A stretch of 64,000 nucleotides of DNA, taken from the NCBI GenBank assembly GCA_947561395.2, contig OX387184.1:44072766-44136765 (forward strand), in the 5' to 3' direction. The translations under genes and the position numbers were made by a program. This document shows, one piece after another, positions 1,280-64,000 of the stretch. Source of the DNA: Buxus sempervirens. Lineage: Eukaryota; Streptophyta; Magnoliopsida; Buxales; Buxaceae. The notes under the pieces were generated by a model. It was not told the DNA's origin. It saw nothing but the letters and a program-made list of their open reading frames with translations, and did not search any database. The first letter of the stretch is position 1. Each line of letters begins with the position of its first letter.

Positions 1280-1423
1280 CTTAACCGACAACTCAGGTCG
1301 GTTAAGAAGAATTTCATTCATATCCGGCATATATTGTCGGTTACAAAGACCTATGCGTGTATCCGACTAATTATATTGGATACAATAAGCCATAGCCTTA
1401 TCCGACATTTCATGCCGGATACA
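1280..1423 (+). promoter_or_regulatory. Four-palindrome array, 39-bp spacing, in element A leader
   Basis: Palindromes lie at 1280-1306, 1319-1345, 1358-1384 and 1397-1423. Each has 10-nt arms around a 7-nt centre, and the centres are exactly 39 bp apart. The first is perfect (CTTAACCGAC / GTCGGTTAAG) although its outer arm bases differ from the usual TGTATCC, meaning both arms changed together. The same array occurs in A-family LTRs and upstream of A's antisense promoter. Function unknown. Confidence 0.85.
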
Positions 1424-1699
1424 TGCAGAAAATGTGCAAATGGGTTTTTCAGCCCAAAATTTCAGAATAAATTGCCTAAAACACTATGGATATTCCTTAG
1501 GCACCCCAAAGAGAATATAAAAAATGTTTCAAAAAAAATATAAAATAAAATAAAATTGTTTTTAGGGTTTAACCTAATTTTGAAAATCGAAGAGGGAACC
1601 AAGGTGTCATATTTTTTGATACCAATTCAACTCAAACATGTTTCAATCAAGCTCTTGAACTTGAAAACTGAGGAAACTCAGCAACAACAAAAAAAACTT

Positions 1700-3310
1700 G
1701 TGAGACATTTAGAAGCCCCAGAATATTGCAAAAAACCTTTGTTTGGTCACGAGAACCATTCAAAATCAAAAAACTTTTGGGACATTTGGAAGCCCCAGAA
1801 TATTCCAAAAACCTTTATTTGGTCACGAGAACCATTCAAAAAGCAAAAAATTTGATGGGACATTTGGAAGCCCCAGAATATTCCAAAAACCTTTGTTTGG
1901 TCACGAGAACCATTCAAAATCAAAAATTTTGTGGACATTTGGAAGCCCCAGAATATTCCAAAAAAAAAAACCTTTGTTTGGTCACGAGAACCATTCAAAA
2001 ATCAAAAAACTTGTGGGACATTTGGAAGCCCCAGAATATTCCCAAAAAAAAAAAAACCTTTATTTGGTCACGAGAACCATTCAAAATCAAAAAACTTGTG
2101 AGACATTTGGAAGCCCCAGAATATTCCAAAAAAAAAAAAACCTTTGCTTGGTCACGAGAACCATTCAAAAATAAAAAAACTTGTGGGACATTTGGAAGCC
2201 CAAGAATATCCCAAAAAACCTTTATTTGGTCACGAGAACCAATCAAATCAAAAAATTTGTGGGACATTTTGAAGCCCCAGAATATTCCAAAAACCTTTGT
2301 TTGGTCACGAGAACCAATCAAATCAAAAAAAATTTTTGGGACATTTGGAAGCCCCAGAATATTCCAAAAACCTTTGTTTGGTCACGAGAACCAATCAAAT
2401 CAAAAACTTTGTGGGACAATTGGAAGCCCCAGAATATTCCAAAAACCTTTGTTTGGTCACGAGAACCAATCAAATCAAAAAAAATTTGTGGGACATTTGG
2501 AAGCCCCAGAATATTCCAAAAACCTTTGTTTGGTCATGAGAACCAATCAAATCAAAATATTTGTGGGACATTTGGAAGCCCCAGAATATTCCAAAAACCT
2601 TTGTTTGGTCACGAGAACCACTCAAAATCAAAAAATTTGTGGGACATTTGGAAGCCCCAGAATATTCCAAAAACCTTTGTTTGGTCACGAGAACCAATCA
2701 AATCAAAAAATTTATGGGACATTTGGAAGCCCCAGAATATTACAAAAACCTTTGTTTGGTCACGAGAACCAATCAAATCAAAAAAAATTTGTGGGACATT
2801 TGGAAGCCCCATAATATTCCAAAAACCTTTGTTTGGTTACAAGAACCAATCAAATCAAAAAAAAATTTGTGGGACATTTGGAAGCCCCAGAATATTCCAA
2901 AAACCTTTGTTTGGTCACGAGAACCAATCAAATCAAAAAATTTGTGGGACATTTGGAAGCCCCAGAATATTCCAAAAACCTTTATTTGGTCACGAGAACC
3001 AATCAAATCAAAAAATTTGTGGGACATTTGGAAGCCTCAGAATATTCCAAAAACCTTTGTTTGGTCACGAGAACCAATCAAATCAAAAAAAATTTGTGGG
3101 ACATTTAAAATCCCCAGAATATTCCAAAAACCTTTGTTTGGTCACAAGAACCAATCAAATCAAAAATTTTGTGGGACATTTGGAAGCCCCAGAATATTCC
3201 AAAAACCTTTGTTTGGTCACGAGAACCAATCAAATCAAAAAAATTTGTAGGACATTTGGAAGCCCCAGAATATTCCAAAAACCTTTGTTTGATCACAGGA
3301 ACCAATCAAA
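1700..3310 (+). repeat. Minisatellite, about 21 copies of a 75-bp unit, element A leader
   Basis: The unit contains GGAAGCCCCAGAATATTCC followed by TTTGTTTGGTCACGAGAACC and an A-rich tail of variable length. The period of 75 is a multiple of three, which leaves several reading frames open for hundreds of codons; these are not genes. Each unit can fold: TTTGGAA pairs with TTCCAAA around an 11-nt loop. Early units have ATTCAAAATC where later ones have AATCAAATC, so the array has at least two homogenised blocks. Tandem subrepeats in untranslated regions are known in Tat/Ogre elements. Confidence 0.95.
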
Positions 3311-3422
3311 ATAAAAATTAAAAATAAAAAAATAAAAAAAAGAGGGGGCAAATAAACCCAGACTTGTGTTCACCTAGCCTACTTGTCTACATTTATAGGG
3401 GTGTGACTCAAGTTAAATTGAA

Positions 3423-12743: not shown

Positions 12744-12777
12744 CTACTCGCTGAGATATTCGTATCTCAGCGAGTAG
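12744..12777 (+). other. Perfect 15-bp hairpin with TTCG loop
   Basis: CTACTCGCTGAGATA (12744-12758), TTCG, then the exact reverse complement (12763-12777). It follows a TGCATGCATG stretch. The solo LTR in element B keeps only one arm-like half near 60730-60755 (CTGCTACTTGCTGAGATG), so the second arm appears to be a later or lineage-specific duplication. Confidence 0.85.
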
Positions 12778-14010: not shown

Positions 14011-15826
14011 CTAGTCTCTGTCTCCTAGCCGCTCCTCAACCTCCCGAATCCGTGCTGCCTGAGCTGCAATAACTCCCGAAGCCCCCTCTGCAGCGGGATC
14101 ACTCAAGAAGGAAATGACCTCATCTGAAAGGGTCTGTCTAATCCGCATGCTCCTAAGGCTGGCTAAGGCATCCTGGTACTTCTGCCGTACCATCCAAACC
14201 TCAAAGCGGCGGGCCTGCCTCTGTTCCTCAAGTTGCTTTTCCATAGCAAGACGGCGGGATACCTGCTCAGCAAGTTGACTCTCCATGTCAAGGCCCCGTA
14301 TTCTAAGCTCCCGGGCCTCTCGTACCCATATCTGTTGAAGTCGCTTGTGAGAAGCTCTCTCAGACTCCAAGATGTCCTCATAAGTAGGAGCCAAGACTGC
14401 AGGAGGATCTTCAGGTACTGGGGCCTGACTCTGTATCTGCTCCCTAATCCAGAAGAGATAGTCCTTCACATGGGACTCTAAGAAGACCGGGCTCCGCATA
14501 AAACGAACATAGGACCACTCCCTCATCAACCAAGAATTCAGCTTCATGGTGGCTGGTGAAAGTGGCCCAAGGTGGTCCTCATATCCACTTGGGATTATAA
14601 TCCCCTGGGTCGCTCTGAACTGACGAAGAACCCGCAAAGGGAGGTAAAGCACTGCGTGTCTCAAGCCAGCCAGAACCCGGTCTAGGAAACTGATCACTGT
14701 CTCTGCATTGGGCTGATAAGTACCAGGCCACCTCACTTGATCATCTTGGAGTGTAGCCAAGAAAGTAAACCAGCCCTGTTTACCCCCTGGAATGTCAGGA
14801 CACCCCCGGTTGCTCATCAAAATGGGAACTTTCAGGCTTGGGAAGAAGTGCCGATTGATCTCCTCAATCTAACTTAGGTGGTCAAGTAGCCAAAGCTGCA
14901 AAAGAGGTGGGATATTTTAGTATATTGTAAAAAGGAAAAAAAAAAAAGAAAAGCAAAAAGCAAAAAGAAAAAAAAAAGAAAAGAAAGAGAAAATTTTTAC
15001 CTGCAGAACAGGTGTACATGACAGGAAGCGCTTCTTCTTCCTGTATTAACAGTCAGTCAAAGCCTAGTACATCTCCACCAAAATCATAGGAGCCAATCTC
15101 TCCCTCTCCCTAACCTGGCATACAACTGAGATTAGGGCCAAGTCCACCTCATCGTCATCCCGAGGGAAAAGCAGTTGGTTAACCACTATCAGGGTCAAGG
15201 CATTGAACCTGGCTTCCTTGTTCTCCCCCCTCAAGAGCTTCTCAGTCAAAAAAGACTTGGACAAAGTCAAAAGGGTGTCAGAATCCCCTAAATCCTTCTT
15301 CCCTATACTCAGGAAAGTAGAAGCCTCCTTCTTGTAGCTGGGCCTAAGGGGTGGGTTCACTACCTTCTCATCAAATCTCAAGCTCAGGATGGTTTCCACC
15401 TCTTCAATGGTCGGGGTCATCTCATGGGTTCCAAAACGGAAAAGGTTGAGGTCGGGTACCCAATGGCCAATCATGGCTTCAATAATCTCTCACTTGAAGG
15501 GAATCTTCGGGATAAGCAGAATGTGGCCTAGATGGGTGGAATCCCATCTCCTCTCTTCATCAAGGGTCATAGAATTAACCCATCTACTGTAAAATGAGTC
15601 CACAGGATTATACCTAGTGAGTTTAGGAGGTTTTGATCTAAAAGACTGTTTTGCAGGGGAGGCTACGTGGACAGACAATGGCAAGGCAGAGGATGATCCG
15701 GAATCCACTGGAGATGATGGGAGCAAGCTAGAACCCAATGGGAGGAAGAAAAAGGCGAAAAAGGGGTTTTCTAAACTCAAAAACTCGTAAAAAAATACGC
15801 AAATCCCGAGGCTGGTTGCATTTATA
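14011..15826 (-). pseudogene. Element A antisense gene, plant-mobile-domain-like (fossil)
   Basis: Reads opposite to gag-pol. The N-terminal part (15600-15480) has SRWVNSMTLDEERRW. The next part (15474-15064) has FRFGTHEMTPTIEEVETILS, the pattern typical of the PMD/DUF7745 family, then ALTLIVVNQLLFPRDDDEVD. The C-terminal part (14820-14011) has a long alpha-helical, coiled-coil-like segment rich in Gln, Glu and Arg, ending EERLGDRD. A TATA box lies at 15821-15826 on this strand and a palindrome array lies just upstream. Antisense open frames between integrase and 3' LTR are known in Tat-lineage elements, with unknown function. The copy has a few interruptions, some of which could be introns. 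Element B keeps the C-terminal half at 61864-62618. Confidence 0.7.
15821..15826 (-). promoter_or_regulatory. TATA box of the antisense gene
   Basis: On the minus strand the sequence reads GCTATAAATGCA, a standard plant TATA context. The antisense reading frame starts within a few hundred bases downstream, and the nearest palindrome of the array ends only 12 bp upstream. Confidence 0.6.
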
Positions 15827-15837
15827 GCAGGTTTTAA

Positions 15838-15981
15838 TGCATCCGATATATCAGACCAAATACAAAGGCCTCTCTTCATATCCGTTGAACAGTGCCGGAT
15901 ACAAAAGAAGTCATGTGTATCCGACATAACATGCCGGATACAAGGGAAATTCAATGTATCCGATCTGATATGTCGGATACA
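15838..15981 (-). promoter_or_regulatory. Four-palindrome array, 39-bp spacing, upstream of antisense promoter
   Basis: Units at 15838-15864, 15877-15903, 15916-15942 and 15955-15981; the centres are 39 bp apart with 7-nt loops. The one nearest the TATA box is the most decayed. Arms match those in the LTR (TGTATCCGAC with GCCGGATACA or GTCGGATACA). Confidence 0.85.
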
Positions 15982-16499: not shown

Positions 16500-16600
16500 T
16501 GTAGACACCCCAAATTGCACAGTAAAAATGGTCGATAATTAGCAAAAATCATTATCTCCTTGGAAACCAGCACAAAATTTGAGAAAATGAGTTTTTTCCT

Positions 16601-16744
16601 TGTATCCGGCAACTCAGGTCGGATACAAGCGTATTTCTTCACATCTGATGGAAAATGCCGGATACAAGTCGCCCTTAATGTATCCGGCAACATATGCCGG
16701 ATACACATAGGTGCTTGTGTATCCGACCTGACATGTCGGATACA
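16601..16744 (+). promoter_or_regulatory. Four-palindrome array, 39-bp spacing, in element A LTR
   Basis: Units at 16601-16627, 16640-16666, 16679-16705 and 16718-16744. The third is perfect with GGC / GCC at the inner arm and the fourth is perfect with GAC / GTC, a compensatory pair change. The second keeps only its right arm. The array ends 166 bp before the TATA box. Confidence 0.9.
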
Positions 16745-16889
16745 TGCTTTTTGCTCAAAATTAGGGTTTTCCGAGAGTTTTCAAATTTTACCATCATATC
16801 CTTCATTAAAGGAGTGGAAATCTCGGAAATAGCCTTATGGTTAAGGTTGGTGGGTTATAGACCTTATGTTGTGTCTACCATCCCACCAA

Positions 16890-16917
16890 CCCTAACCCTA
16901 GCCTTTGCCTATAAATA
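16890..16917 (+). promoter_or_regulatory. LTR core promoter: telomere-like motif and TATA box
   Basis: CCCTAACCCTAG, two partial plant telo-box repeats, is followed by TATAAATA at 16910-16917. The same order is seen in the inverted solo LTR (TATA at 23754-23761) and, with a shorter telo-box, in the LTR at the right end (63489-63496). Confidence 0.8.
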
Positions 16918-17021
16918 GGAGGCTCCTCCTTAAGCAAATGGCCAACAACTCTTGTCAAGAACTTTTGCCAAGAAGAGCTCCGAGTGAAGAGGGAAACCGC
17001 TGCGGAACTGCTTCTAGAACC

Positions 17022-17030
17022 CAGGTAAGC
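17022..17030 (+). promoter_or_regulatory. Splice donor in LTR leader
   Basis: CAG followed by GTAAGC, about 110 bp after the TATA box. It is preserved in all four LTRs that cover this part: here, about 23634 (inverted), 47026/47027 in element B and 63591/63592. Conservation points to a spliced LTR leader. Confidence 0.65.
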
Positions 17031-17204
17031 CTCAAACCTATCTTTAATTTTCTGTTTTTACATTTTAGATCTAGATCTCTTCTTCTACCTTTCTGTAGAA
17101 TAAGGCCTTGATGTGTGTATGAAAACCCTAGCCGTAAAACGTGAAGGCTGGATCTAGGAGAAACGAGACTGGGGATTGATCTTAGTGCTAGAACCTTTTT
17201 CGAA

Positions 17205-17520
17205 TAAGCCTTTTGAATCTGTAAAGACCGTTCCATATTCAAAGTACCCAAGAGTATCTTGAAGAACCGTGTTTAACGGGGAGAGAGAACTAAGGGAAAC
17301 GATAATGGAACGGAACCCTAGGTTGTTTTAGAACCCTTTTTTTATTGATCTAAATGCATGCTATAAGCCTTGTGATTCTATGAAAACCGTTTCATATTCA
17401 AAGTACCCCAAGATTATCTTGAAGAACCGTGTTTAACGGGGAGAGAGAACTAAGGGAAACGATAATGGAACAGAACCCTCGGTTGTTTTAGAACCCTATT
17501 TTGATTGATATGAATGCATG
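17205..17520 (+). repeat. Tandem duplication of about 160 bp in LTR
   Basis: Two copies each carry GAAGAACCGTGTTTAACGGG, then GAGAGAACTAAGGGAAACG and AACCCT, near 17257 and 17418. The right-end LTR shows related repeats near 63700 and 63840, and element B's LTR has its own tandem copies at about 47130-47395. Not coding. Confidence 0.75.
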
Positions 17521-18708
17521 CTATCTTTGCTATGTTGTTGGAATGATTTTTACACCTACACATACATGGCACGTGATTTTGGCGAGATAGGCTCATATTT
17601 CGGATTTATTGCCTTTATTGTGATAAATCTAAAATAAATAGCCCCAAGCAATTCTGGAATGTCTTTAAATGATTTTCAAGTGATTTTGATCTATCTTGCA
17701 CGGATCACACACCTCTTGTCACTGTTTTGAGTTATTTTTATCCAAAAATGGTTTAACTTGACAGCAACTGTACCCCAACTTCGGACACTCATAACTTCAT
17801 CGTCCGGATGAATTTTGGAGTGATTCCAGAACCATGGGAAAGGTGAGGCTGTCTAATTTATGCCTACCAAATTTGATTAACTTCTATCAAGCGGATTTTG
17901 GACACGTCTCTGTCAAAGTTGATAGGTCAGTTCTGATCTGAATACAGAACTTGTCACTTCGACTGAGCGTCATGTGTTCGTTTTAAGTCTGATTCGAGTG
18001 ATTCTTGTTTCTGAGTTTTCCTATGGAAGTCTAGTTTTAAATGCAGTTGGTTTTATAATTTTTTGAATCCATTTGTGTTGTGAGCAACAGATTTACTCAG
18101 AGCTGTTCAACAGCACTTTTCTGGGTAAATCTGTGATCTTTGGGGCCTGTTCGAGAGACCACCCAAGGCACATCCGAATGAATTTCTTTATGAGACTAGT
18201 TTCATTTGAAAGATGGCCATACAGACTTCACTCACACCAAATTTCATGAATTTATATGGAGCAGATTTTGCTAGGTGATTTTCCAAACTTGCCTACTTGT
18301 CACTTTTAATTATCTCCAGCAGCAATTTTAAAGGAGGTATAGCTCCTAGGATTTCAACCGGATTCAATCCAAATTTTGCATGAGTTTCTTATTTATCATA
18401 ATCTTTCAAATGGATTTGGTTTGATTCAATTTAAAATTGGATTTGAATGATTTCAAGACAAATGGCATTATCTTTTACCGAATTTTCCGGATTTGACTCA
18501 ACTTGGATTTGTACAATCTTTGCTTTGATTTCCATTTATTGTTGATATTCCAGAAGTGATATTGGCATAAAAGAGGATCTGGAATTCATTTGGATTTTCA
18601 TGTGAAGATATCATACATTTATCATTTTTCAAGGTTTTTTTTAATGATTTTTAGCAAGCTTTCCTATTTTTTAGCATGAACAACACTTGGCAACCACCTT
18701 GTGTGGGT

Positions 18709-18739
18709 GAATGGGGGTGCCTAACACCTTCCCCCGTTC
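18709..18739 (+). other. Conserved 9-bp hairpin near LTR 3' end
   Basis: GAATGGGGG pairs with CCCCCGTTC around the loop TGCCTAACACCTT. Element B has GAATAGGGG / CCCCTGTTC with the identical loop at 48094-48124, a compensatory change. It lies in a block of about 90 bp that is much better conserved between families than the rest of the LTR. Confidence 0.8.
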
Positions 18740-18873
18740 ATAATCTAATCCCCTTACCCATCTCTGGATTTGATTTTCAAGTAGAGTTATTTGTACTCTA
18801 GAATTTGCCTTTTAGCTCTTTTTGCTTATTTTGAATCTTTTGGTGTCCATTCACACCCCAAAAATCTGAATGG

Positions 18874-18883
18874 TGGCGACTCT
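18874..18883 (+). other. Primer-site-like motif inside the LTR
   Basis: TGGCGACTCT, the first ten bases of the tRNA-Arg-type primer site seen at 48325-48342 in B, occurs about 70 bp before the LTR end. Element B's LTR has the same internal motif at 48243-48252. Confidence 0.6.
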
Positions 18884-18952
18884 CCCATTTTACGTTCAGC
18901 CCGTTTGTTGATGGAGGGGAAATCATCCCGGTGATTTTTCCCATGTCTCACA

Positions 18953-21671: not shown

Positions 21672-24172
21672 TGTGAGACATGGAAAAAATCACCGGGATG
21701 ATTTCCCCTCCGTCAAGACACGGACTCAATGTAAAATATGGGAGAGAGTCACCACCATTCAGATTTCTGAGGTGTGAATGGACACCAAAAGATTCAAAAA
21801 TAAGCAAAAAGAGCTAAAAGGCAAATTCTAGAGTAAAAATAACTCTACTTGAAAATCAAATCCAGAGATGGATAAGGGGATTAGATTATGAACGGGGGAA
21901 AGTGTTAGGCACCCCCATTCACCCACACAAGGTGGTTGCCAAGTGTTGTTCATGCTAAAAAATAAGAAAGCTTGCTAAAATCATTAAAAACCTTGAAAAA
22001 GGACAAATGTATGATATCTTCACATGAAAATCCGAATGAATTCCAAATCCTCTTTTATGTCAATATCACTTCTGGAATATCACCAAAAGATGGAAATCAA
22101 AGCAAAAGTTGCACAAACCAAGTTGACTTAAATCCGAAAAATTCGGTAAAAGCAAGAACCATTTGTCTTGAAATCATTCAAATCTAATTTAAATTGAATC
22201 AAACCGAATCCATTTGAAAGATTATGGTAAATAAGAGACTCATGCAAAATTCCAATTAATTCCGGTTGAAATCCTAGGAGTTATGCTTCTTTGAAATCTG
22301 CTGCTGGAGATAATTAAAAGTGACAAGTGGGCAAGTTTGGAAAATCATTGAGAAAAATTGGCTCCATATAAATTTATGCAATTTGGTGTGAATGAAGTAT
22401 GTATGGCCATCTTTCAGATGAAACTAGCCTCATACAAAAATTCATTCGGATGTGCTTGGGTGGTCTCCCGAACAGGCCCCGAAGATCACAGGTTTGCCTA
22501 GAAAAGTGTCATGAGCAGTTCTGAGTAAATCTATTACCAACGACACAAATGGAGTCAAAAAATTATGAAACCAACTGGATTTGAAACTATACTTCCAAAG
22601 GAATACTTAGAAACAAGAATCACTCGAATTGGACTTAAAACGAACACATGGCGTTCAATCGAAGTGACAAGTTCCGTATTCAGATCTGAATTGACCTATC
22701 AACTTCGACAGAGGGGTGTCAAAAATCCGCTTGATATAAATAAATGAAATTTTATAGGCATAAACCAAACAGCCTCACCTTTCCCATGACTCTAAAATCA
22801 CTCTAAAATTCAATCGGACGATGAAGTTACGAGTGTCCGAAGTTGGGGTACAGTTGCTATCAAGTTAAGCCTTTTTTGAAGAAAATCAATTCAAAAGAGT
22901 GCTTGAGTGTGTGGGATCCTTGCAACATGAATTTAAAATCATTTAAACAAAGTCTGAAGAACCTCTAGGAAGTAATGGGGCACAATTTTGGCTCACCATC
23001 CTCTCCGATTGGAAAGAATATGCCAAAAACCCCCAAAATTGAGCAAAAGTGCTCAAAACCGAGAGGTTAGACCTAGAGATCTTCAAAACTCAGATCAATC
23101 TGATTGAAATCAATTCGAAAATCATTGAAATATATTCCAGAATTGCTTGGGGCTATTTATTTCAGATCTACCACAATAACGGCAATAGATCCAAAATACA
23201 AGCCAAATCCGATAAAAACGGGTGTTATGTGTGTATGTGTAAAATCATATCTTTAACAATATATAGCATGTATTCATCAATCAAATGGGGTTCTAAAACA
23301 ACCTAGGGTTCCGTTCCATTATCGTTTCCCTTAGTTCTCTCTCCCCGTTAAACATGGTTCTTCAAGATAATCTTGGGGTACTTTGAATATGAAACGGTTT
23401 TCATAGATTCAAAAGGCTTATTCAAATAGGTTCTAACACTAGGATCAATCCCCAGTCTCGTTTCCCCTAGATCCCGCCTTCACGTTTTACGGCTAGGGGG
23501 AGTCTCGAGGTACTTTGAGTAGGAGAAGGGTTTTCATACACATAGAAGAGGCCTTATTCTACAGAAAGGTAGAAGAAGAGATCTAGATCTAGAATGTAAA
23601 AACAGAAAAGTAAAGAGAGGTTTGAGGCTTACCTGGGCTTCTGGAAGCAAGACTGCAGCGGTTCCCCTCTTCACTCGGAGCTTTTTGATCTCCAACTTCT
23701 TGGCAAAAGTTCTTGGCAAGAATTAATTGCCATTTGCTTAAGGAGGAGCCTCTTATTTATAGGCAAAGGCTAGGGTTAGGGTTGGTGGGATGGTAGATAC
23801 AAACTAATGTCTAGAGCCCACCAACCTTAACCATAAGGCTATTTCCGAGATTTCCACTCATTTAATAAAGGATATGATGGTAAAAAGTGAAAACTCTCGG
23901 AAAACCCTAATTTGAAGCAAAAATCATGTATCCGACATATAAGGTCGGATACACAAGCATCTATATGTATCCGACATATGATGTCGGATACGTTAAGGTT
24001 TGCTTGTATCCGACAACTTATGTCGGACACAAAGGGATATGCTTGTATCCGACCTGAGTTGTCGGATACAAGGAAAAATGCTTATTTTCTCAAATTTTGT
24101 GCTAGTTTCAAAGGAGATAATGATTTTTGTCAATTATTCTTCATTTTTACTGTACAATTTGGGGTGTCTACA
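21672..24172 (-). mobile_element. Inverted solo LTR (2501 bp), element A family
   Basis: The minus strand reads TGTAGACACCCC to CCATGTCTCACA, as in the element A LTR. The flanking 5-bp duplication is ATGAG (21667-21671 and 24173-24177). It includes the palindrome array (23927-24070), TATA box (23754-23761), splice donor near 23634 and the conserved hairpin (21890-21920). No internal region adjoins either end, so it is a true solo LTR formed by LTR-LTR recombination. Confidence 0.93.
23927..24070 (-). promoter_or_regulatory. Four-palindrome array, 39-bp spacing, in inverted solo LTR
   Basis: Units at 23927-23953, 23966-23992, 24005-24031 and 24044-24070. All four use the GAC / GTC inner arm and 7-nt centres. 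Spacing is exactly 39 bp throughout. Confidence 0.9.
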
Positions 24173-24523: not shown

Positions 24524-25621
24524 TGTTGCTCCAAAAATGGGCCGGTGTGGACACGTGTCGAGGGTGGTGATGTGTCTCTACGCGGGCGTGCCAGTATCGT
24601 TTGATACAATGATTTTCGAGTCGATTCCTGACCCCGGGCACCTGTTCCGAATCTGAACCGAGATCGGTTCAGTCGTACTGCAAGTCACCTGTAACAAAAT
24701 CGGTCAGGCGATGGTATGAAGACTAGGGGTTCGGTCTTCGTTTTGGGTTCTTGTAAGCGTTTGAAAGCGAAAGCATCTAACGACACACAAATCCTTTATT
24801 AATAAATCGGCCGAATAGCCGAAAACGACAACAGATAATCCTCAAAAGGGAAACAAAAGTAAAAAAGAAAACTGACAGGGCTCGCAGGACCGGCCTGTCC
24901 TGGTCTTATAGCCGTAATCGGTTATAAGCGCAGGAGGAAGGGGGCGGCTGCTAGCAAAGCCAATTCAGGGGGTTCACCTTGGATTGCTGCTTACCCGAAA
25001 ATACACGAGTCACCTGGCGTGAACAGAGCGAGTCTCGGGACCGGCTGCTCGGGATTCTGTAAGGACAGAACTGCGAGTCAGGGGCGGCCTCAACTTACTC
25101 TCTGGTGGCAGGATTCTGGTGTTAGTCGGAGTAAAGAGGGGTCGAAGATGTCACTACGACTGGAAGCAGTGAGAGAAGTCCTAGTTTATCCGTCTGTATT
25201 AGAGGGGATAAAGGATCACGGATGATCAAAATAATATAATAACCGGTTGCAGTTGTGTGGATTGTGTCCTTGAGCTCTTCGAATTGGTGCCTTTTATAGC
25301 CGCTCCTTGACGGTTGCTCAACGTCCTACTCTTGCACGATCTTCATGGCGGTTGGTCATCTTCAGTTCTCTGTTTCAAAATGATAACCTCCCGGCCATGA
25401 TCTAAAAATAGTTTTATTCTTGAACGGCCGATGGCACGATCTTCTGATATTTGTGGTTTTGTCGTATTGGCTTGCGTGGCTCGAACCGCATTCTTCTGTA
25501 TGCGTGCTGACGTGGCCTGCTCAACCATTCAAAGCCTACGGGCCTTGATGTCGTGGCCTAACTAAGCCACTTAGGCTCCACGTGTCCTTCTCTTATTCGT
25601 CGGTTATATAGGGTGTAAACA
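24524..25621 (-). repeat. Element D 3' LTR
   Basis: On the sense strand it reads TGTTTACACC to GGAGCAACA. A TATA box (CTATAAAAGG) lies on the minus strand near 25290. A palindrome CTGAACCG / CGGTTCAG with a 4-nt centre lies at 24653-24672. The adjoining G-run (minus strand AAGTAGGGGGGCAA, 25622-25636) is the likely polypurine tract. Confidence 0.95.
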
Positions 25622-25778
25622 TTGCCCCCCTACTTATTTGTGACGCCGTCATCGGCCGGTGTGATGAATAAGTATTTCGGGTTTTTCAAAATTTGTCCGT
25701 CGTTTGATGTGAAAAGATCGCGCCGTTTCCCTACGATCGTAATGATGAAACTTTTCAGATTTCATCTTCTATCTTGCT

Positions 25779-25785
25779 TATAAAG
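25779..25785 (+). promoter_or_regulatory. TATA box of first antisense PMD gene
   Basis: TATAAAG, 69 bp before the ATG at 25854, followed by a pyrimidine-rich leader. This gives the gene its own promoter independent of the LTR. Confidence 0.65.
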
Positions 25786-25853
25786 TACCACAGCCGAGAT
25801 TTTACTTTACTCTTTCTTTTTGGCTGTTTGTCTTTTCTTCTTCTTTGTCTTCA

Positions 25854-28800
25854 ATGGCGGGCACTCTCATATACTATCCTTCTACAGCCGAAGTTTTCGA
25901 CGGCTCGATATCTGTAGGCCCCTTCATTTGTGCCAGTAATGCTCCTTTGGAGGCCCCGACTGAGAAAGTGAGGGGCCCTTTACTCTTTACTGATGAAAAG
26001 AATCTCAATCTACCTCTTCGCTTTCGAAATTGGCCGACTGCTTACCCTGAATGGAAAGCCTGGGTTGACCGCATGAAGGATCGTTTTGCCGTTATTTGGC
26101 GTAAGACAGGTATTTATGACATGATTATCTTTTCCTGTCACTCTATTCCCTGCAATCGCGATCTTCTCTATGACATGAGTTCATTCTGGAATGCTCAGAC
26201 CAATACCTTCAATTTCCCTTGCGGAATGATGACTCCTACTGTCATGGATGTCTGCTTTATTACTGGTTTCTTCGCAACTGGTCATGAGATCCGGGTTGGT
26301 ATGGCGGATCTTAAGGATTACCAGCATTTACCTCCGATGGAAGTGGGTGACAAAGGGAAAGAGGTAGAAAAGAAAAGAAAGCAACCTCCAACGAAGAATA
26401 ACAGGGCTTCCAAGAAGGTGCGATCTTCTCGGCAAAAAGGTATTGTTTTGTCCGAGAACGAACCTCCACCGTCAGAGAGCGAATCTCCACCGACTTCAAT
26501 TCATTCTTCTTATCGGTCCTATATCAAGGACTGTGCCAAATTCCGGCCTCCAGCTCATGAAGATGAGGTGGAACACTTCTACTTTCTCCTTTATTTTTTC
26601 TGCAACTTTGTATTCTGTTCCAAGGCTCAAGCAGTTACCAAAGAGTATTACTCGTTGGTTAAGTTAATTTTGGGTGAGTATGAAGTTGCCCTTGCTCCTT
26701 ACTTTTTATCGGTTTTGTACCGTTCACTTCAAGAGTTTGTTCATGGCACCCTTCAGAATCATGGGGGGCCATTGTGGTTCCTCCAATTTTGGGCTTATCA
26801 CTATTTTCCATCCCAGTTTTATGCTCAAGTGCCGATTACTCCCAATATGCCTTCTGAGTTTGGTGGCTACGCCTGTTTGGCTGCCACTCCAGCTGTTCTA
26901 TCTTTTTCTGAATGTTTCCGTTTCTTTTTTAATCTTCATCATTTTCCTACTCCTCCTTTTGAAGTCTCCGCAAATTCTCTCGGTTTCCTTTCGATGGTAG
27001 ATGACATAACTGACGAGCAGCATCTTATCTGGGCCAGTTTTCTGATGGCTCGAAATTTAAATTATGCTGTGAAGTCGATTAACAAGAAACCGGGGTTTGA
27101 GGTATACTTGCCAAATTGTGTCGGCCGGCAATTTCAATGTGAATAGAGGATCCCCTTATTTGATGTGGATGGTTTGTTCACAATTAATGCCAAATCTGTT
27201 GATCGGCCGTCTGTCACTGTAGCCGAAGCTGCCCAAATGGAAGATGCTTATAGAGTTGCTGCCGTTGAATTTCAACTTCCCTTTCTTCCTCGTCGTCACA
27301 AATGTCGTTGTGATTTCCATGTTTGGTGGAAATCTTTGTTGAACAACATTTGCTGCCATTCGGCCGATTATTATCTTGAAAGACTGGGTCTGTTTGAGCC
27401 TTTGGCTTCACCTATCCAAGAAGGTATATTCTTATCTTTCTTGTTTCTGATCCACTTGATGTTCACTCAGTTGTTCTGTCATTAGGTGAAGTACCGCCTC
27501 TAGCTCTGGAGGCTGGTCCACTTGAACTTTTGCCTGAACCGATCCAAGAAGATATCAATTCAGCTAGTCGGTCACCCGTCAGAATGCCGTTTCTCGCCTT
27601 GGAGGCTCATGCTTCCCCTTCCGGGGAATTGGCCGAGGATGATGCTTTGTCACCAGAATGTCCTCTTTCGATCGTCCCGTATGAAGATGATGAGGATCCC
27701 GATGATGTCCCACTACGACGGCGTCCTCGGAAGGTACTGAATCTTCATTTACCATTCTTTTTATTCTTCCTTCTGACACCTCATTCTTCTAGGCTTCGAG
27801 TTCCTCGGGTCCAACTGCTTTTTCCTCCAATGTCATGGAATCTTCTTCGGATCCAGTTATTGATCCCATGTCTGTTTTTGATCCGGTCAATTTCGTTGGT
27901 CTTGCCGAAACATTGGATTCTCCTGGTAGTGTCATTGCAGCAGCTCCTTTAGTACTTCCTGAAGGTCAGGAGCATTTATCCATTCGAGAGGATTCTTCAG
28001 AAAGAAGTCCGTCTCCCGACTTACCTCCTGGATATGAGCAGAGTGCTACCCTTCCGGTAGTTGAGATTGCAACGTCTACCACTTCCATTGGGCCTTCCGG
28101 CCCTTCTGCCTTGGCCGATATTCCTCCAGATTCTCTTGTTACAGCAACGGATGGTGATACTGATCGGCCGAAGCAAAAGCTTGTTGAATTGGGGAGTTCC
28201 AGTTCATCGCTTGTTCCTTCTCCTGCTGCGGGATCACTCTCTGGTGATGGCCATGGCCGATTGGACACTATATTGAATGATGTCTGTTCTAATCTCTCGT
28301 CGGATGGTTCATCTGAGCCCTTATCTCCAACAAGTATCCGATCGGAGATTATCCGCCTCCTCTCTCCAGGCATAGTTGGTATTTCCGAAGAGACTCTTAC
28401 CCGTGTGATGGCATTGGCTGCGCAGCTTCGGGATCTCTCTTCTGTATCTCCTGACGTAAAATCGGTGTTCTCTCAACTTACTTTCCTTTACTCCTATAAA
28501 GTTGTCTTTGACCATCTTTCGGCCAAACTACATGAAATGAGTAATACGGCCGATTCTGTTGATGGCCGATATCAACTTTTGCAACAGTTAAGGAATGAGC
28601 GCGAGATTTGTCACCATCAGTATATTGAAACGGTCCACCGTATAAACATCATTGATGATGATATTTCGGCGGTCGACCGTCAGATTGCTAAGTTACAGTC
28701 TAAGAGATCTGATCTTGTAAATCAACGGGAGGAACTTCTTCATACGAATAACGCTGTTGATGATACCTTGAAGGACAAGACCCGTCAGTGCATCGAGATC

Positions 28801-28935
28801 TCCCACGAGCTAAAATCGGAGATAGAGTTGGCTCGAGGTTCTTCTCTACTTCGGTCCACTTTGGTTGAAGAAAAACGGTCTGCTCAAGAGTCTTTTGACC
28901 GTATATATTCTGCAATTTTAAATACTTCTTTGTAA
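25854..28935 (+). CDS. Antisense gene 1 of element D: plant mobile domain protein
   Basis: Starts MAGTLIYYPS. The N-terminal two-thirds is a plant mobile domain: LRFRNWPTAYPEWKAWV, then MMTPTVMDVCFITGF, VALAPYFLSVLYRSL and GPLWFLQFWAYHYFP. A Lys/Arg-rich insert after about residue 160 (KKRKQPPTKNNRASKKVR) looks like a nuclear localisation signal. The C-terminal third is acidic and Ser/Pro-rich, then a coiled coil (QQLRNEREICHH to IAKLQSKRSDLV). Host PMD proteins MAIN and MAIL1 act in the nucleus and are needed for transposon silencing; what element-borne copies do is unknown. The frame is divided by short intron-like spacers and has about one further break. Frequent CGGCCGA words are shared with the neighbouring gene. 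Confidence 0.75.
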
Positions 28936-29276
28936 AGCATTTAATGAATTAAATTCTTTTTGGAATCCATTTTGCCAACTGTCCTGGCCGTCAGAATCGG
29001 CTCCTTTTTCGACAAAGTTCATCTTTTCAATTTGATTCGTCCGTATGATCTTTACCCTTAAAAACGCTTTATTCGAGAAGATATTCAGCCGCCGTTTCGA
29101 TTTCTTCGGGAAGGCGATCGTCCTATCAGCACCTTTTTCGGGAAGACAGCAGTCTTATCAACGCCCTTCTCGATATTTTGAATCATTACGAGCTTTTCTT
29201 CCTGCACACGTTTCCTTGCTTTGTTTCGTCTTCTTCTCTCTGCGAGCTTTCCTTGTCTGGTTTCCGATATTGATCA
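28936..29276 (+). promoter_or_regulatory. Spacer and 5' region between the two PMD genes
   Basis: No coding region. It includes repeated TTTTTCGGGAAG/TTCTTCGGGAAGGCGATCG words near 29105-29150 and a pyrimidine-rich leader before ATG at 29277. No clear TATA box was seen. Confidence 0.5.
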
Positions 29277-32029
29277 TGGCGGATGATAACCCTAATGACT
29301 TGAATCTGTTCCTCGACGGTGAAGATGGTCCTGTTCTTGGTCGATGCACCGATGAAGATACGGAAGAGGCCCCAAAGGTCCTGCACTCTTCTTTCCACTT
29401 GATCAGCGCCTCTGATCCTGTGAGGTGGGGTAATCTGATTACTCTTCCTCGTTCCTGGCCTAAATGTTCCCCTGAGTGGAACAAATGGGTTGAACGGTTA
29501 TGGCCTTTTCATATGGAGACCTGGGTTAGGCTCGGGTTGGCGGAGATAATCTTCTATTCCACCTTCTATATTCCCTTCAACCCTATTTTACTTGGGTGGC
29601 CTCGTTTTTCTGGTGTCGGGGTTCCAATACCTTCTCTTTCTGTCACGGTCCCATGACTACCACACTCTTAGACGTTTGCTGTATCACTGGCCTTTCCGTT
29701 CTCGGGGAAGAGATAGATTCCAGTTTATCTCTTTTCCCGTCTTCTGTTTTCAGCACTGTTCATGCTTCTTCTGCTTTCGGCACTTTTGTTCGTGCTAAGC
29801 GAGTTTCAAATACTGATAGTCCTCCCTCCTTTCAAGAACATTGTTCTTTCTTGCTGTTTCTCCTTTGCCATTTTTTCTGCTGTGGCCCATCTGCTCAGAT
29901 GGTAAAGGAGTTTGCCGGTATTGCGGTAGCCCTTGCCCATGGTCGTCGTCTGGCTTTAGCCCCTTTCTTTCTCAGCCAGGTTTATCGAGGTTTACACAGT
30001 CTATCTTCTGGCCGATTCGGGGTCGCTAGTGGCCCTCTTTGGTTTTTGCAATTTTGGTTCTATGAATACTTTCCCGGCTTCTTCTGTGAGGCCGTAAATA
30101 ATCCTTTTCCCAACTATTACTATACCGGTCGCCGATGGCTCACTGCGACACCCAGGCAACTGTCTTTTACGACTGTTCTTGATTTCTTCCTTGTGGGTAT
30201 ACAGAACATACACCCACCCTTATTTCACTGCTTTTCCTTAGAGCAATTCCATGGTTCCCCTCTCTATGCCGCCATCAATTCCACTCCCGAAACCCGTCGT
30301 CGTGCTATGGCCAGCTTTCTCATCGCGCAGGAGCTCCCTTTTGGTTTGCATAATCTGGATGCTCCTGCTACCTCTAGAAGAGAAGGAGTAGAGATTTATC
30401 TGCCGCATTTTGTCAGCCAGCAACTTGACTATGGCCAAGGCATTCCTCTTGTTTTGTTCTCGTTCACCAATGGTGATTCTCGGTCAGTTCTCACTCCCAG
30501 CTACCTGTCTATCATTACCCATCGTTTTCGTGACCTTTTCGGTCGTTTCCGCAACTATCCTCTTCCTCGGGAATCTCCGACCGAACCTTATTTTCGGCGA
30601 TGGTGGGCTCAGCTTTACTCTGACTTTGTCCGGCTTGATGCAGAGTCGTATACTACGTTTTTTCGACCGAATGTGGCCGATATAGCGAATATAGCCAAAC
30701 TCCGTGGGTATTATGAGGCCCGTTACCCAGGTAACTTTCTTTTATGTTCTTGTAAATTGATTCTCTCTATTCGGTCGCGTCTGACTTTCTTTTTTTCTAT
30801 TAGATGATCATCGATCCTCCAACGTGAAGGGTAAGAAAAAGAAAGCCGAGACGACGGTCACCTTCAGCTGGAGGCGACCTTCCAAGGCTTCTGCCAGTCG
30901 GAGCAACCCTTCCTCCAAACAGTCGCCACTGAAAAAACGGAAGATTGGTGAGGTATCGGATGGTCGTGCTTACGTCACCCGTTCCAGCTTGCGACTCCGA
31001 GTTCAGCATCCGGGTGAGCGTGTCGTCGTGGCTGATGATTCTTCTGGCGATGAAGAGGATATCGATTTATCTCGCCCTCAGCGTAGGCCCCCTGTTGGTT
31101 CTGCAAGTAGTGGTCGGTCATCTCCCATGCCGATTCCTCCCCGTGCATTTCATTATGTTAGTCCCTTATCTCGTCTTCCAACGAATTCTGTTTCTTCCAT
31201 GGCCGACCCATCGCCTAGCGCGTGTAGGCAGATTCCTCCCATTCCTTCTCCTGGTCTTGATGAAGCTGGCACGTCTCCTTCCTCTGGTAATGTTTTATCG
31301 GATTCCTCCTCCGATGAATTACCTGATGATCCAAAAGTCCCGGTGGCCAATGATGATGCCTTTAGAACTCTTCCTGGCACTTGCTTTGGATTTGTCAGAT
31401 CATGTTTCATGGAGATAGATCGTTGTCTCGCCTCTCCAGAATTTCGTGACCTTCGTCCAGCTTTTCTTTCAGGATTCGACAGTCATGACGAACTCCGCTC
31501 TTTAGTTCTTCGTCGACCTGAAGATCTCTCTGATGATGAGCTGTCTGCGCTCCGATTGCTAATATGTCATGCCACAGTAACTAACCCTCATGGGGACCCT
31601 ACGACTGAAAGTCGGCTAATGTCCATGCTCGGGTTTTACAGTGCCGTACCGCGACTCCGAGAAGCTATGGATTATCTTCGTTCTATCAATATCAGATGTT
31701 CCGACTTTCGCCAAGAAATCCGTGAGGTATTCGGTTATCATCGTCAGCTGGAAGCCTTGCGGCGGACTCTCGGTGTCAACCTTCTCAATCAGGTTTCTGT
31801 TGCTGATAGTCCATCGGCCGCTAATTTGACCGAATTATCTCGACTCCAATCTGAGGAACAATGTCTTAAAGAATCCATCAAGGCTCAGTGGGTGCTGGTC
31901 GAGTCAAGCCGTCATCGCTTGGAGGAGCATATGCAAGATGAAAGAGATGTGGAGGTACGACGGGCCGAGATGCAATTCTTGTTGGAGCGGGCAAAGTATG
32001 ATCATGCCCGATTTAAAACTTGGTTTTGA
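29277..32029 (+). CDS. Antisense gene 2 of element D: second plant mobile domain protein
   Basis: Starts MADDNPNDLNLFLDGEDG. Same plan as gene 1 but strongly diverged: WPKCSPEWNKWVERLWPFH, PMTTTLLDVCCITGLSVLGE, RLALAPFFLSQVYRGL, GPLWFLQFWFYEYFP. A basic patch (KGKKKKAETTV, then PLKKRKIGE) suggests nuclear entry. The C-terminal half is acidic and Ser-rich, with helical segments ending RHRLEEHMQDERDVEVRRAE. An intron-like spacer separates the PMD part from the C-terminal part, and there is about one break. The two genes look like an old tandem duplication inside the element. Confidence 0.75.
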
Positions 32030-40041: not shown

Positions 40042-41139
40042 TGTTGCTCCAAAAATGGGCCGGTGTGGACACGTGTCTGTATTGATGATGTGTCTCTACG
40101 CGGGCGTGCCAGTATCGTTTGATACAATGATTTTCGAGTCGATTCCTGACCCCGGGCACCTGTTCCGAATCTGAACCGGGATCGGTTCAGTCGTACTGCA
40201 AGTCACCTGTAATAAAATCGATCAGGCGATGGTATGAAGACTAGGGGTTCGGTCTTCATTTTGGGTTCTTGTAAGTGTTTGAAAGCGAAAGCAACTAACG
40301 GCACACAAATCCTTTATTAATAAATCGGCCGAATAGCCGAAAACGACAACAGATAATCCTCAAAAGGGAAACAAAAGTAAAAAAGAAAACTGACAGGGCT
40401 CGCAGGTCCGGCCTGTCCTGGTCTTATAGCCGTAATCGGGTATAAGCGCAGGAGGAAGGGGGCGGCTGCTAGCAAAGCCAATTCAGGGGGTTCACCTTGG
40501 ATTGCTGCTTACCCGAAAATACACGAGTCACCTGGCGTGAACAGAGCGAGTCTCGGGACTGGCTGCTCGGGATTCTGTAAAGACAGAACTGCGAGTCAGG
40601 GGCGGCCTCAACTTACTCTCCGGTGGCAGGATTCTGGTATTAATCGGAGTAAAGAGGGGTCGAAGATGTCACTGCGACTGGAAGCAGTGAGAGAAGTTCT
40701 AGTTTATCCGTCTGTATTAGAGGGGATAAAGGATCACGGATGATCAAAATAATATAATAACCGGTTGCGGTTGTGTGGATTGTGTCCCTGAGTTCTTCGA
40801 ATTGGTGCCTTTTATAGCCGCTCCTTGACGGTTGCTCAACGTCCTACTCTTGCACGATCTTCATGGCGGTTGGTCATCTTCAGTTCTCTGTTTCAAAATA
40901 GTAACCGCCCGGCCATGATCTAAAAATAGTTTTATTCTTGAACGGCCGATGGCACGATCTTCTGATATTTGTGGTTTTGTCGTATTGGCTTGCGTGGCTC
41001 AAACCGCATTCTTCTGTATGCGTGCTGACGTGGCCTGCTCAACCATCCAAAGCCTACGGGCCTTGATGTCGTGGCCTAACTAAGCCACTTAGGCTCCACG
41101 TGTCCTTCTCTTATTCGTCGGTTATATAAGGTGTAAACA
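40042..41139 (-). repeat. Element D 5' LTR
   Basis: Same 1098-bp length as its partner. Carries the same TATA box and CTGAACCG palindrome (here CTGAACCG GGAT CGGTTCAG). Confidence 0.95.
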
Positions 41140-45633: not shown

Positions 45634-45826
45634 GAGTTCTGTCCTTCTCTTGATCTCCGAGCTTTATCTTTAGTCTAATATATCTCTAAATAAGCGAATT
45701 ACGTATTTTATTCGCTGAAGCCACCTTGGTTGGCTATGGATGGGCATTATCTTGTGTTTAACTCAAACTGAAACTCTATCTTGCCAAACCCTGGACCAAC
45801 CTTACCCCTGTGCTTGCCTATAAATA

Positions 45827-49565: not shown

Positions 49566-49672
49566 ACACGGGCTGGGCTCGCCCGTATTGGTTATACGGG
49601 CTAAGCTCGCCCGTGTTGGTCATACGGTCACGGCTTGCTCATAATATGAACACGGGCAAGGCCGGACCGTGG
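49566..49672 (+). promoter_or_regulatory. Four-palindrome array, 28-bp spacing, element B leader
   Basis: Centres at 49577, 49605, 49633 and 49661. Units 1, 2 and 4 have ACGGGC arms facing GCCCGT or GACCGT across a 7-nt centre; unit 3 keeps its left arm. It holds the same leader position as element A's 39-bp array. Confidence 0.85.
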
Positions 49673-56460: not shown

Positions 56461-56476
56461 AACCAAGGATCACAAA

Positions 56477-62618: not shown

Positions 62619-63067
62619 TGTAGACACCCCAAAATTGCACGATTTTTGATAAATCTTGAAGGAGAGAAATATTTTATGGGAATTTTCAATTCTTTGCATT
62701 GGGTTTGAGATACTTAACCAATTTGAATCCAAAACCATAAAGGAAAAGGCCTGAATTCAATCTTTTGTGCAAAGTCAAACTTTTTCCGGTTTAATTTTGT
62801 TGACTTTTGACCCCAGAAAATGAAATATTTTTTAAACCCAGATTTCAAGATAATTTTTCCCGGTAATCAGGTTTTTAGCCATGTTATTGCATAAAAGAAT
62901 TTTTTTGACATTTTAAATCTTGGCGAATACCTTGGTTTTAACATATTGAACCTTTTTTCCAGACCTGAAAAATCGGAATTTTGCCTAGAATTGGAAAGTT
63001 GACTTTTTATTCACTTGGAATTTGGGTCTGGAACTATTTTCAATGGATTCAAATGAGGGGGTGTTTG

Positions 63068-63149
63068 CTTATTTACATGTAATATCTTAAGTAAGTGGAG
63101 ATTAAAAAATACGAGGACATTTACTTAAACGATATTACATGTAAATAAG
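63068..63149. repeat. 82-bp foldback element in the right-end LTR
   Basis: CTTATTTACATGTAATATC (63068-63086) and its perfect reverse complement (63131-63149), extended inward by TTAAGTAA / TTACTTAA. It is not seen in the other A-family LTRs at this place. It could be a tiny MITE-like insertion or a locally generated inverted duplication. Confidence 0.75.
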
Positions 63150-63189
63150 TATTGCCTGTATTAAAATTTGGAAAAAAGGCTTTTTTCCT

Positions 63190-63333
63190 TGTATCCGGCA
63201 CCTCAGGCCGGATACAAGTACTTTCCTTTGTATCCGGTCTCAAGTGCCGGATACAAAGAGCCTTTAGTGTATCCGGCATCATAGGCCGGATACATTAAAG
63301 CTCTAGTGTATCCGGCCTGAGATACCGGATACA
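63190..63333 (+). promoter_or_regulatory. Four-palindrome array, 39-bp spacing, in right-end LTR
   Basis: Units at 63190-63216, 63229-63255, 63268-63294 and 63307-63333. Arms TGTATCCGGC / GCCGGATACA with only one weak pair in units 2 and 4; centres of 7 nt. 156 bp before the TATA box. Confidence 0.9.
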
Positions 63334-64000
63334 TTAGTTTTTGCTCAAAATTAGGGTTTTCCGAGAGAAATCACTTTTTACCATCATATCCCTCATTTAA
63401 TGAGGGGAAATCTCGGAAACAGCCTTAGGGTTAAGGTTGGGGGGTTCTAGACATTAAGTTGTGTCTACCAACAACCCTAGCCTTTGTCTATAAATAGGAG
63501 GCTCCTCCTCAAGCAAAGGGCCAAGCTTTTGGAGATCGAAGAACTCCGAGTGAAGAAGGGAACCGCTGCCGGATTGCTTCCAGAACCCCAGGTAAGCCTC
63601 AACCCTAATTTACTTTCTGTATTTAATTTATTAGATCTAGATCTCTTCTTCTACCTTTCTATAGAATAAAGCCTCTTTTTGTGTGTGGAAATCCTTCCCC
63701 GGCTCAAAGTATCTCAAGACTCCCCCTAGCCGTAAAACGTGAAGGCGGGATCTAGGAGAAACGAGACTGGGGATTGACCCTAGTGCTAGAACCCATGTAG
63801 CATAAGGCTTTTTGAATGATTGAAAACCGTTCTATAATCAAAGTACCCTTGATTATCTCGAAGAACCGTGTTTAACGGGGAGAGAGAACAGAGGGAAACG
63901 ATAATGGAACGGAACCCTAGGCTATGCTAGAACCTATCTGGTTGAATCTATATGCATGATATTTGGGGTTTATTACATTTATTGTAATAAATCTCAAATA

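Follow-up and report, generated by a model that had tools for sequence, protein, structure and literature searches.

Why should one palindrome recur four times over, in exact register, at five places in a single stretch of plant DNA? A sequence-only reading of the window, by which we mean the whole stretch of 64,000 nucleotides analysed here, had described these arrays and proposed that they are a binding platform for a dimeric protein, or an RNA fold, under selection.

Palindrome arrays in the window

All five arrays were found again, each with four units, arms of 10 bp, a centre of 7 nt and unit starts 39 bp apart:

16601..16744, + strand: array 1, four palindromes at 39-bp phase in the U3 of the 3′ LTR of element A; TATAAA 165 bp downstream
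23927..24070, − strand: array of solo LTR B, in U3; GAC variant in all eight half-sites; TATAAA 165 bp downstream
63190..63333, + strand: array of LTR E, in U3; G at arm position 9 in 8/8 half-sites, GGC in 6/8; TATAAA 155 bp downstream
15838..15981, − strand: array of the antisense accessory gene of element A, outside the LTR; ends 11 bp before TATAAAT
1280..1423, + strand: leader array of element A, upstream of gag; unit 1 with the CTTAACCGAC arm variant on both sides
1516..1521, + strand: TATAAA near the leader array of element A, 92 bp downstream of the array

Three of the five arrays lie in LTRs; the array at 15838–15981 precedes an antisense gene, and that at 1280–1423 lies in the leader of element A. 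The TATAAA at 1516–1521 stands in A-rich DNA, and to call it a promoter is a guess. Pairing of the arms is imperfect: across the 20 window units, 170 of 200 arm positions form Watson–Crick pairs, the unit at 16640–16666 pairing worst (4/10). An inverted-repeat scan (at most one mismatch, loops of 3–15) showed the window arrays together with other matches, including a leader minisatellite with a palindrome of its own. Rfam gave no match within the window.

Elements carrying the arrays

The window was mapped by self-comparison and direct reading of the sequence. The leader of element A (+ strand) lies close to the start of the window; gag-pol follows at approximately 3.5–10.6 kb, an antisense gene at 15.8–14.0 kb and a 3′ LTR at 16500–18952. 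Element C (+ strand) is related to A, with a 7.1-kb internal match at 76%, and its antisense-gene region is interrupted from 62619 by LTR E. Element D occupies approximately 24.5–41.1 kb of the minus strand. The LTRs and their promoters are as follows:

16500..18952, + strand: 3′ LTR of element A, running from TGTAGACACCCC to CATGTCTCACA; 82% identity to LTR B over 2546 columns
16910..16916, + strand: TATAAAT of the LTR promoter of element A, read from the sequence
21672..24172, − strand: solo LTR B; ATGAG on both flanks, a 5-bp target-site duplication
23755..23761, − strand: TATAAAT of LTR B, read from the sequence
62619..64000, + strand: LTR E; begins with TGTAGACACCCC and is truncated where the window ends; lies within the antisense-gene region of element C
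63489..63495, + strand: TATAAAT of LTR E, read from the sequence

The Pfam order in element C is gag, RT, RNase H, a second RNase H (RVT_3) and integrase core, with RT_RNaseH in 54311–56377 and RVT_3, followed by H2C2 and rve, in 56378–57949; the H2C2 match (23.4 bits) is below its cut-off of 25.5. Since RT precedes INT, element C belongs to Ty3/gypsy. Two features of the Tat clade (Ogre/Retand type) were found, namely the additional RNase H between RH and INT in element C and, in element A, a further ORF in antisense orientation that lies between pol and the 3′ LTR. Judged by their predicted domains, the elements are Ty3/gypsy and, by the additional-RNase-H criterion as it appears in a portion of PMC6317226, Tat-type.

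Opposite its gag-pol, element D has two ORFs (25749–32029, + strand), both of which contain a plant mobile domain (E 8.9e-29 and 1.6e-27). D-type LTRs lie at 24524–25621, 40042–41139 and 45826–46928, element D's own two being 97.2% identical. The third copy ends where the match of C's 5′ LTR starts (46938–46941) and so probably interrupted that LTR.

The antisense gene and its promoter

The antisense gene of element A was resolved into the following parts:

15820..15826, − strand: TATAAAT of the antisense gene of element A; the array ends 11 bp before it, the same distance as in 18/20 other copies
15067..15489, − strand: open piece of exon 1; DUF7745 (PF24924), E 3.2e-10, 40.1 bits against a cut-off of 26
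14011..14868, − strand: 3′ open piece; no Pfam family at E 1

A plant mobile domain (PMD) match of the gene is sub-threshold (28.4 against the Pfam cut-off of 34.9). The 3′ open piece would be preceded by an intron of about 107 nt (GTAAAA...TTGCAG), and it had no homologue at E 0.001 among 2873 candidates. The predicted structure of the DUF7745 piece was unusable (pLDDT 41).

Used as a protein query of the genome, the DUF7745 piece gave 150 scored matches among 5017 candidates, with 94–97% identity apart from the window's own; an internal stop was present in two of the 150. The gene class was then tested without reference to the motif: 20 of the 150 matches were picked from the upper part of the list for contig spread, and the 341 bp upstream of each were fetched. 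An array was present upstream of 18 of these 20 copies, and all 18 arrays end 11 bp before TATAAAT. The remaining two (L048 and L059) have the TATA box and no array. Three units with one 55-bp step were seen in L044 and one 79-bp step in L058, and the last spacing is 38 in L045, L051, L052 and L057.

Genome-wide abundance and spacing

We searched the 676.5-Mb genome, in which the window lies on contig C4. The pattern TATCCGRC-N7-GYCGGATA, with up to two mismatches, occurs at 65,303 sites, compared with 205 for the reversed pattern; arms with 0–30 bases between them gave 15,433 exact sites versus 15 for the control. Among the matches listed, all within the first 8.1 Mb of contig C1, the centre is exactly 7 in 58 of 59 distinct sites. 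The fixed loop length that had been proposed was likewise borne out in the window and 13 spaced 10-kb stretches, where 30 of the 31 exact TATCCG...CGGATA pairs lying 0–40 bp apart have an 11-bp gap, equivalent to a 7-nt centre. Exact core pairs 41–60 bp apart in the same sample numbered only 19, all at 50, the distance from one unit to the next. The spaced stretches contained 26 sites (up to three mismatches), in 4 of the 13, each with a neighbour 39 bp off.

A scan for any palindrome in three repeats with a period of 22–70 covered 242,368 bp, made up of the window, the 13 spaced stretches and 16 motif-chosen loci (48,368 of the bases thus being motif-chosen). Apart from the leader minisatellite of element C, everything it recovered was a 39-bp array of the present type; three shuffles gave no matches.

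In total, 48 arrays were collected: 5 from the window, 18 gene-chosen, 17 motif-chosen and 8 from the spaced sample. Outside the window, 106 of the 119 steps in 43 arrays measure 39 bp, a count slightly biased towards 39 by an array finder that retained weak units (three core mismatches) only when they had a neighbour at 37–41 bp. By source, the figure is 47/53 for gene-chosen, 42/47 for motif-chosen and 17/19 for spaced-sample arrays. Random spacing or unpaired arm changes in other family members, taken to mean plain recent tandem duplicates, had been named beforehand as the outcome that would refute the proposal. That outcome was not seen, given this spacing and loops that are more like their positional counterparts in other arrays than like their neighbours. 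The same observation corrects the statement that loop sequences are free: loops at corresponding unit positions of other arrays are 0.61 identical, versus 0.37 at different positions. In the comparison of LTR A with E, and likewise of B with E, a gapped aligner placed four gap openings inside the array, so compensating indels are possible.

Two promoter classes

Arrays were assigned to classes by the position of TATAAAT, with search windows of 140–180 and 8–14 bp. Of the 48, 17 are LTR-type, with TATAAAT 154–166 bp on, 21 are gene-type, with TATAAAT at exactly 11 bp, and 10 fit neither. Three of these ten have TATAAA at 11 bp, and another two that fall outside the TATAAAT rule (L029:801 and L029:9350) have flanks matching that of the window gene array. 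The five left without either promoter class are L002, L012, L018:159, L032:7327 and the window leader array. Four units are present in 12 of the 17 LTR arrays; the window holds no element with both LTRs whole.

In element orientation, the gene arrays have the same direction as the LTR arrays (loop identity 0.615 vs 0.515), and hence one module seems to serve promoters that point in opposite directions. The LTR array is roughly symmetric overall, its loops reaching 0.54 identity with their own reverse complement, compared with 0.38 for non-corresponding LTR-versus-gene units.

Three arrays (L008:1317-1564, L018:1499-1746 and L032:9586-9833) have five units with one 104-bp step, TATAAA at 11 bp and flanks unlike those of the window gene promoter. 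They perhaps represent a related element family with the same module.

Conservation of arms, loops and spacers

In the 14 perfect-phase gene arrays, all 48 columns of core positions 3–8 (TATCCG) are at least 90% identical. The same level is reached in 11/16 columns of positions 1–2, 3/16 of positions 9–10, 14/28 of the loops and 15/36 of the spacers. The corresponding values for 12 LTR arrays are 45/48 for the core (11 of the 17 LTR arrays come from loci picked by exact motif match, which favours a good core), 12/16, 1/16, 15/28 and 8/36. Length is kept where sequence varies: the 39-bp steps persist while the spacers decay.

Arm conservation higher than that of the nearby LTR was not found. 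LTRs A and B are identical at 117/144 positions in the array and at 552/596 outside, and neighbouring-LTR identities between copies are 0.87–0.93; the argument for constraint therefore rests on the arms compared with the loops and spacers. CpG observed/expected is 0.92–1.40 in the three window LTR arrays versus 0.58–0.65 in their LTRs, and retention of CpG between LTR copies is no better in the arrays than outside (e.g., 7/9 vs 11/13). The core CpG is retained in 135 of 142 half-sites of the gene-chosen arrays.

Paired changes in the arms

The arms had been reported to vary in a paired way. Pair-counting on the 20 window units does show excess covariation, with a score reached in 0 of 500 shuffles. 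We rejected this at face value: once right arms are shuffled within arrays the excess is no longer significant, with 170 pairs observed and 168.0 expected of 200 (p = 0.33). In the 48 arrays, 1552 of 1820 positions pair, against 1533.9 with shuffling within arrays (p = 0.013) and 1443.9 with shuffling across arrays. Separated by class, LTR arrays show 574 pairs versus 565.0 in the within-array shuffle (p = 0.018), the 10 arrays outside both TATAAAT classes 288/340 versus 273.4 (p = 0.0096), and the 21 gene arrays 690 versus 695.9 (p = 0.94). The larger part of the pairing is thus the sharing of one state at positions 9–10 among the half-sites of an array, and the smaller part is pairing within units. 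What stands of the earlier description is this array-level sharing, with a smaller unit-level signal in LTR arrays and in those outside both TATAAAT classes; gene arrays show no unit-level pairing.

In LTR arrays, different units agree in their state at positions 9–10 at 0.48 within an array versus 0.28 between arrays at the same position. Their loops behave in the opposite manner (0.39 within, 0.61 between). Gene arrays give 0.56 within and 0.42 between for positions 9–10, largely owing to a GGT clade of 10 gene arrays in which 6–8 of 8 half-sites are GGT. With one member of that clade the values are 0.36 vs 0.34, and a permutation gives 0.364 vs 0.268 (p = 0.0005, with kinship of copies left uncorrected). 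Within one element, in L029, the rare GGA state is common to a gene array (801) and an LTR array (1541) 740 bp further along, a single case.

Locus L018:159-263 has three units in 39-bp phase whose arms differ between units and match within them (TGTAGCC/GGCTACA, CTGG/CCAG and TTGATCC/GGATCAA). A concerted TAGCCG core was considered for this locus and rejected; TAGCCG is present in just one of the three units, which makes the locus evidence for unit-level pairing.

Proposed function and alternatives

We regard the arrays as probable DNA-level cis-regulatory modules, docking sites for a dimeric protein that are common to two promoters of a Ty3/gypsy family of Tat type. The fixed centre and phase, the near-invariant core and the two TATA promoters fit the platform half of the original proposal, and the RNA half is the weaker one. 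A dimer would grip two half-sites, each (TG)TATCCG plus two tunable bases, at a distance set by the 7-bp centre, and four bound dimers would stand at a fixed 39-bp repeat. The U3 module, 154–166 bp before the LTR TATA box, would set the output of genomic RNA, and the module 11 bp before the antisense TATA box would set the accessory gene, so that one trans-acting factor would set sense and antisense output jointly. Unit-level matching of the arms would also be expected if both halves must suit the same dimer. Protein binding, dimerisation and co-regulation of both promoters are what we infer. The anatomy, phase, TATA positions, copy number, core conservation and tendency to share an arm variant within an array are direct observations. 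No transcription factor for TATCCG turned up in this analysis.

The binder might be encoded by the element itself, plausibly by the antisense DUF7745 gene, whose product would bind its own promoter and that of the LTR in a feedback loop, with specificity at arm positions 9–10 changing together with the half-sites by lineage (GAC, GGC, GGT, GGA). We offer this only tentatively, as a rather doubtful extension. If true, LTR retrotransposons would have a counterpart of systems in which anti-silencing or trans-activation is sequence-specific and self-targeted.

The 3′ U3 and the leader should both be part of genomic RNA, and selection might act on the palindromes as hairpins of element RNA, serving as signals or as sources of small RNA. 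Each unit could fold into a 10-bp stem with a 7-nt loop, 92% of the cells in the 20 window units being standard pairs when G–U is allowed. The unit-level pairing in LTR arrays (p = 0.018) and in arrays outside the TATAAAT classes (p = 0.0096) agrees with folding, as do examples such as TTGATCC/GGATCAA and TGTAGCC/GGCTACA in L018 and CTTAACC/GGTTAAG in the window leader array. Small RNAs concentrate on the LTR palindromes of Sireviruses (portions of PMC5311732 and PMC10760457), and those of maize have been proposed as small-RNA sources. An RNA helix should, however, produce unit-level pairing everywhere together with a G–T preference. The 21 gene arrays lack the former (p = 0.94), and their strand is opposite to gag-pol RNA. 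In the window and in the 48 arrays as a whole, within-array shuffling of right arms costs little pairing, which also speaks against a fold. Wobble preference is absent from LTR arrays (26 G–T vs 27 A–C) and from arrays outside the TATAAAT classes (14 vs 21). The overall excess of G–T (122 vs 76 A–C in 48 arrays) comes from the gene arrays (82 vs 28), where 54 of the 82 fall at the two outer arm positions, 33 of these in unit 3. We consider an RNA fold unlikely.

Upkeep by mutation without function is slightly less probable again. Here tandem duplication, together with template switching or gene conversion that corrects palindromes, would hold both pairing and phase. Mutation is known to correct imperfect palindromes, the arrays are tandem, and in several individual units the two arms have changed together in a matching way; the unit-level pairing in LTR arrays and in those outside the TATAAAT classes would be expected from such correction as well as from an RNA fold. 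Yet homogenisation should spread loops and spacers, whereas the loops are position-specific and the spacers decay at constant length. It also leaves the 11-bp distance to TATA in 18/18 arrays unexplained.

We give equally low probability to a role mainly in chromatin, with four 39-bp repeats (144 bp) forming a platform that is nucleosome-scale or counters silencing, such as a VANDAL/VANC-like target, instead of an array for classical activators. The array length is near nucleosome size, the CpG ratio is higher in LTR arrays than in their LTRs (0.92–1.40 vs 0.58–0.65), and VANC targets are short motifs in non-coding tandem repeats that differ between related elements (portions of PMC5735166). 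Against this, CpG is no better retained between copies in the arrays, and by simple arithmetic 39 bp is about 3.7 helical turns, which puts neighbouring sites on different faces. Deamination is possible for the transitions from GGC to GAC or GGT, but paired transversions are seen in GGA/TCC (3/5 units of L032) and in CTTAACC/GGTTAAG, and 135/142 half-sites of the gene-chosen arrays retain the core CpG.

A shared docking module for a dimeric protein remains our preferred reading. Identifying what binds it would open to testing the control circuit of a family whose sites number in the tens of thousands in one genome. For the antisense accessory genes of Retand- and Ogre-type elements, a rigidly phased array shared by both promoters gives a direct handle on function, and the arm variants are a natural record of site change.

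Relation to known systems

The comparisons below draw on portions of the cited papers. The statement that plant LTR elements have no described equivalent proved too strong, since palindromic CGG-CCG motifs occur in Sirevirus LTRs and upstream of the env-like gene (PMC2829016). These repeated motifs (RM) were described in Ty1/copia by Bousios et al. (2010) and are specific to Sireviruses within the Ty1/copia set of that paper (PMC2829016). As in the present family, CCG/CGG palindromes are repeated in U3 before TATA and again before an extra gene, which is env-like there, and the Citrus Sirevirus motif AATCCGGCTWRCCGGATT resembles the arms of our arrays (PMC2829016). Extra copies of the palindromes precede an additional gene in 18/20 antisense copies and in the window copy; this gene is antisense, and env-like character is described for the Sirevirus gene.

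Sirevirus membership is ruled out, the present elements being Ty3/gypsy (RT before INT in element C); the extra gene here is antisense, and the distance from array to TATA is 11 bp. Sirevirus RMs number at least eight per element and have a short centre in the consensus listed (PMC2829016), whereas here there are four units per array with 10-bp arms, a 7-nt centre and a 39-bp phase. By analogy, the present arrays may work like Sirevirus RMs without being RMs by membership. Palindromic CCG/CGG promoter arrays extend beyond the Ty1/copia Sireviruses into Ty3/gypsy, by convergence or through a common host factor.

VANDALs are DNA transposons. Their VANC targets are also short tandem-repeated motifs in non-coding transposon DNA, with variants that differ between relatives (PMC5735166, PMC10398659). 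Our motif shares this feature, being tandem-repeated in non-coding DNA and different between relatives, with within-array sharing clear in LTR arrays and weaker in gene arrays. The cognate element-encoded protein is known for VANDAL/VANC; here there is only a candidate. The word palindrome is absent from the main text of the VANC paper (PMC5735166). For change in the motif, VANC target repeats are the best parallel.

Retand, also a gypsy element, resembles element A in having an antisense gene that lies after pol and before the 3′ LTR, for which a role in regulating transcription has been suggested (PMC11963269), and an antisense gene with its own promoter is known from maize Grande (cited in PMC11963269). 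The Retand gene is of TRP28 type in 97% of clusters (PMC11963269) and ours is DUF7745; Retand LTRs measure 315–1,194 bp (PMC11963269) and ours approximately 2.45 kb. In that paper "Palindrom" appears only in the reference list. Ogre has the additional RNase H between RH and INT, and 57% of Ogre elements carry a PMD-type extra ORF (PMC6317226), unlike the gene of element A, whose PMD score is below the Pfam cut-off (28.4 vs 34.9).

In the portion of the open-licence literature that was covered, a search for the motif letters gave matches that look unrelated by title and abstract start, and one for palindromes together with Ty3/gypsy terms yielded nothing equivalent; PMC6911290 concerns palindromes as insertion targets. 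Within these sources, the closest known case is the Sirevirus CGG-CCG palindromes, and what is new here is another superfamily, a rigid phase and an antisense promoter.

Other palindromes in the window

The LTRs of element D each contain one lone, unarrayed CCG/CGG palindrome, CTTATASCCG-N4-CGGNTATAAG, with one mismatch each (24905–24928, 40423–40446 and 46520–46543). Element A has, between pol and the antisense gene, a perfect 15-bp inverted repeat with a 4-nt loop at 12744–12777 (CTACTCGCTGAGATA-ttcg-TATCTCAGCGAGTAG). At the site corresponding to A's leader array, element C carries palindromes with unrelated arms, another phase and the same 7-nt centre:

49569..49670, + strand: leader palindromes of element C, ACGGGC-N7-GCCCGT, period 28, two clear units plus degenerate ones; TRF row 49568–49627

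Both leaders also contain minisatellites, in A at 1691–3317 (75-bp unit, ~21 copies) and in C at 49839–50449 (~48-bp unit, ~14 copies), and their units hold hairpins of their own, TTTGTTTGGT-N7-ACCAATCAAA and TCTGAAA...TTTCAGA.
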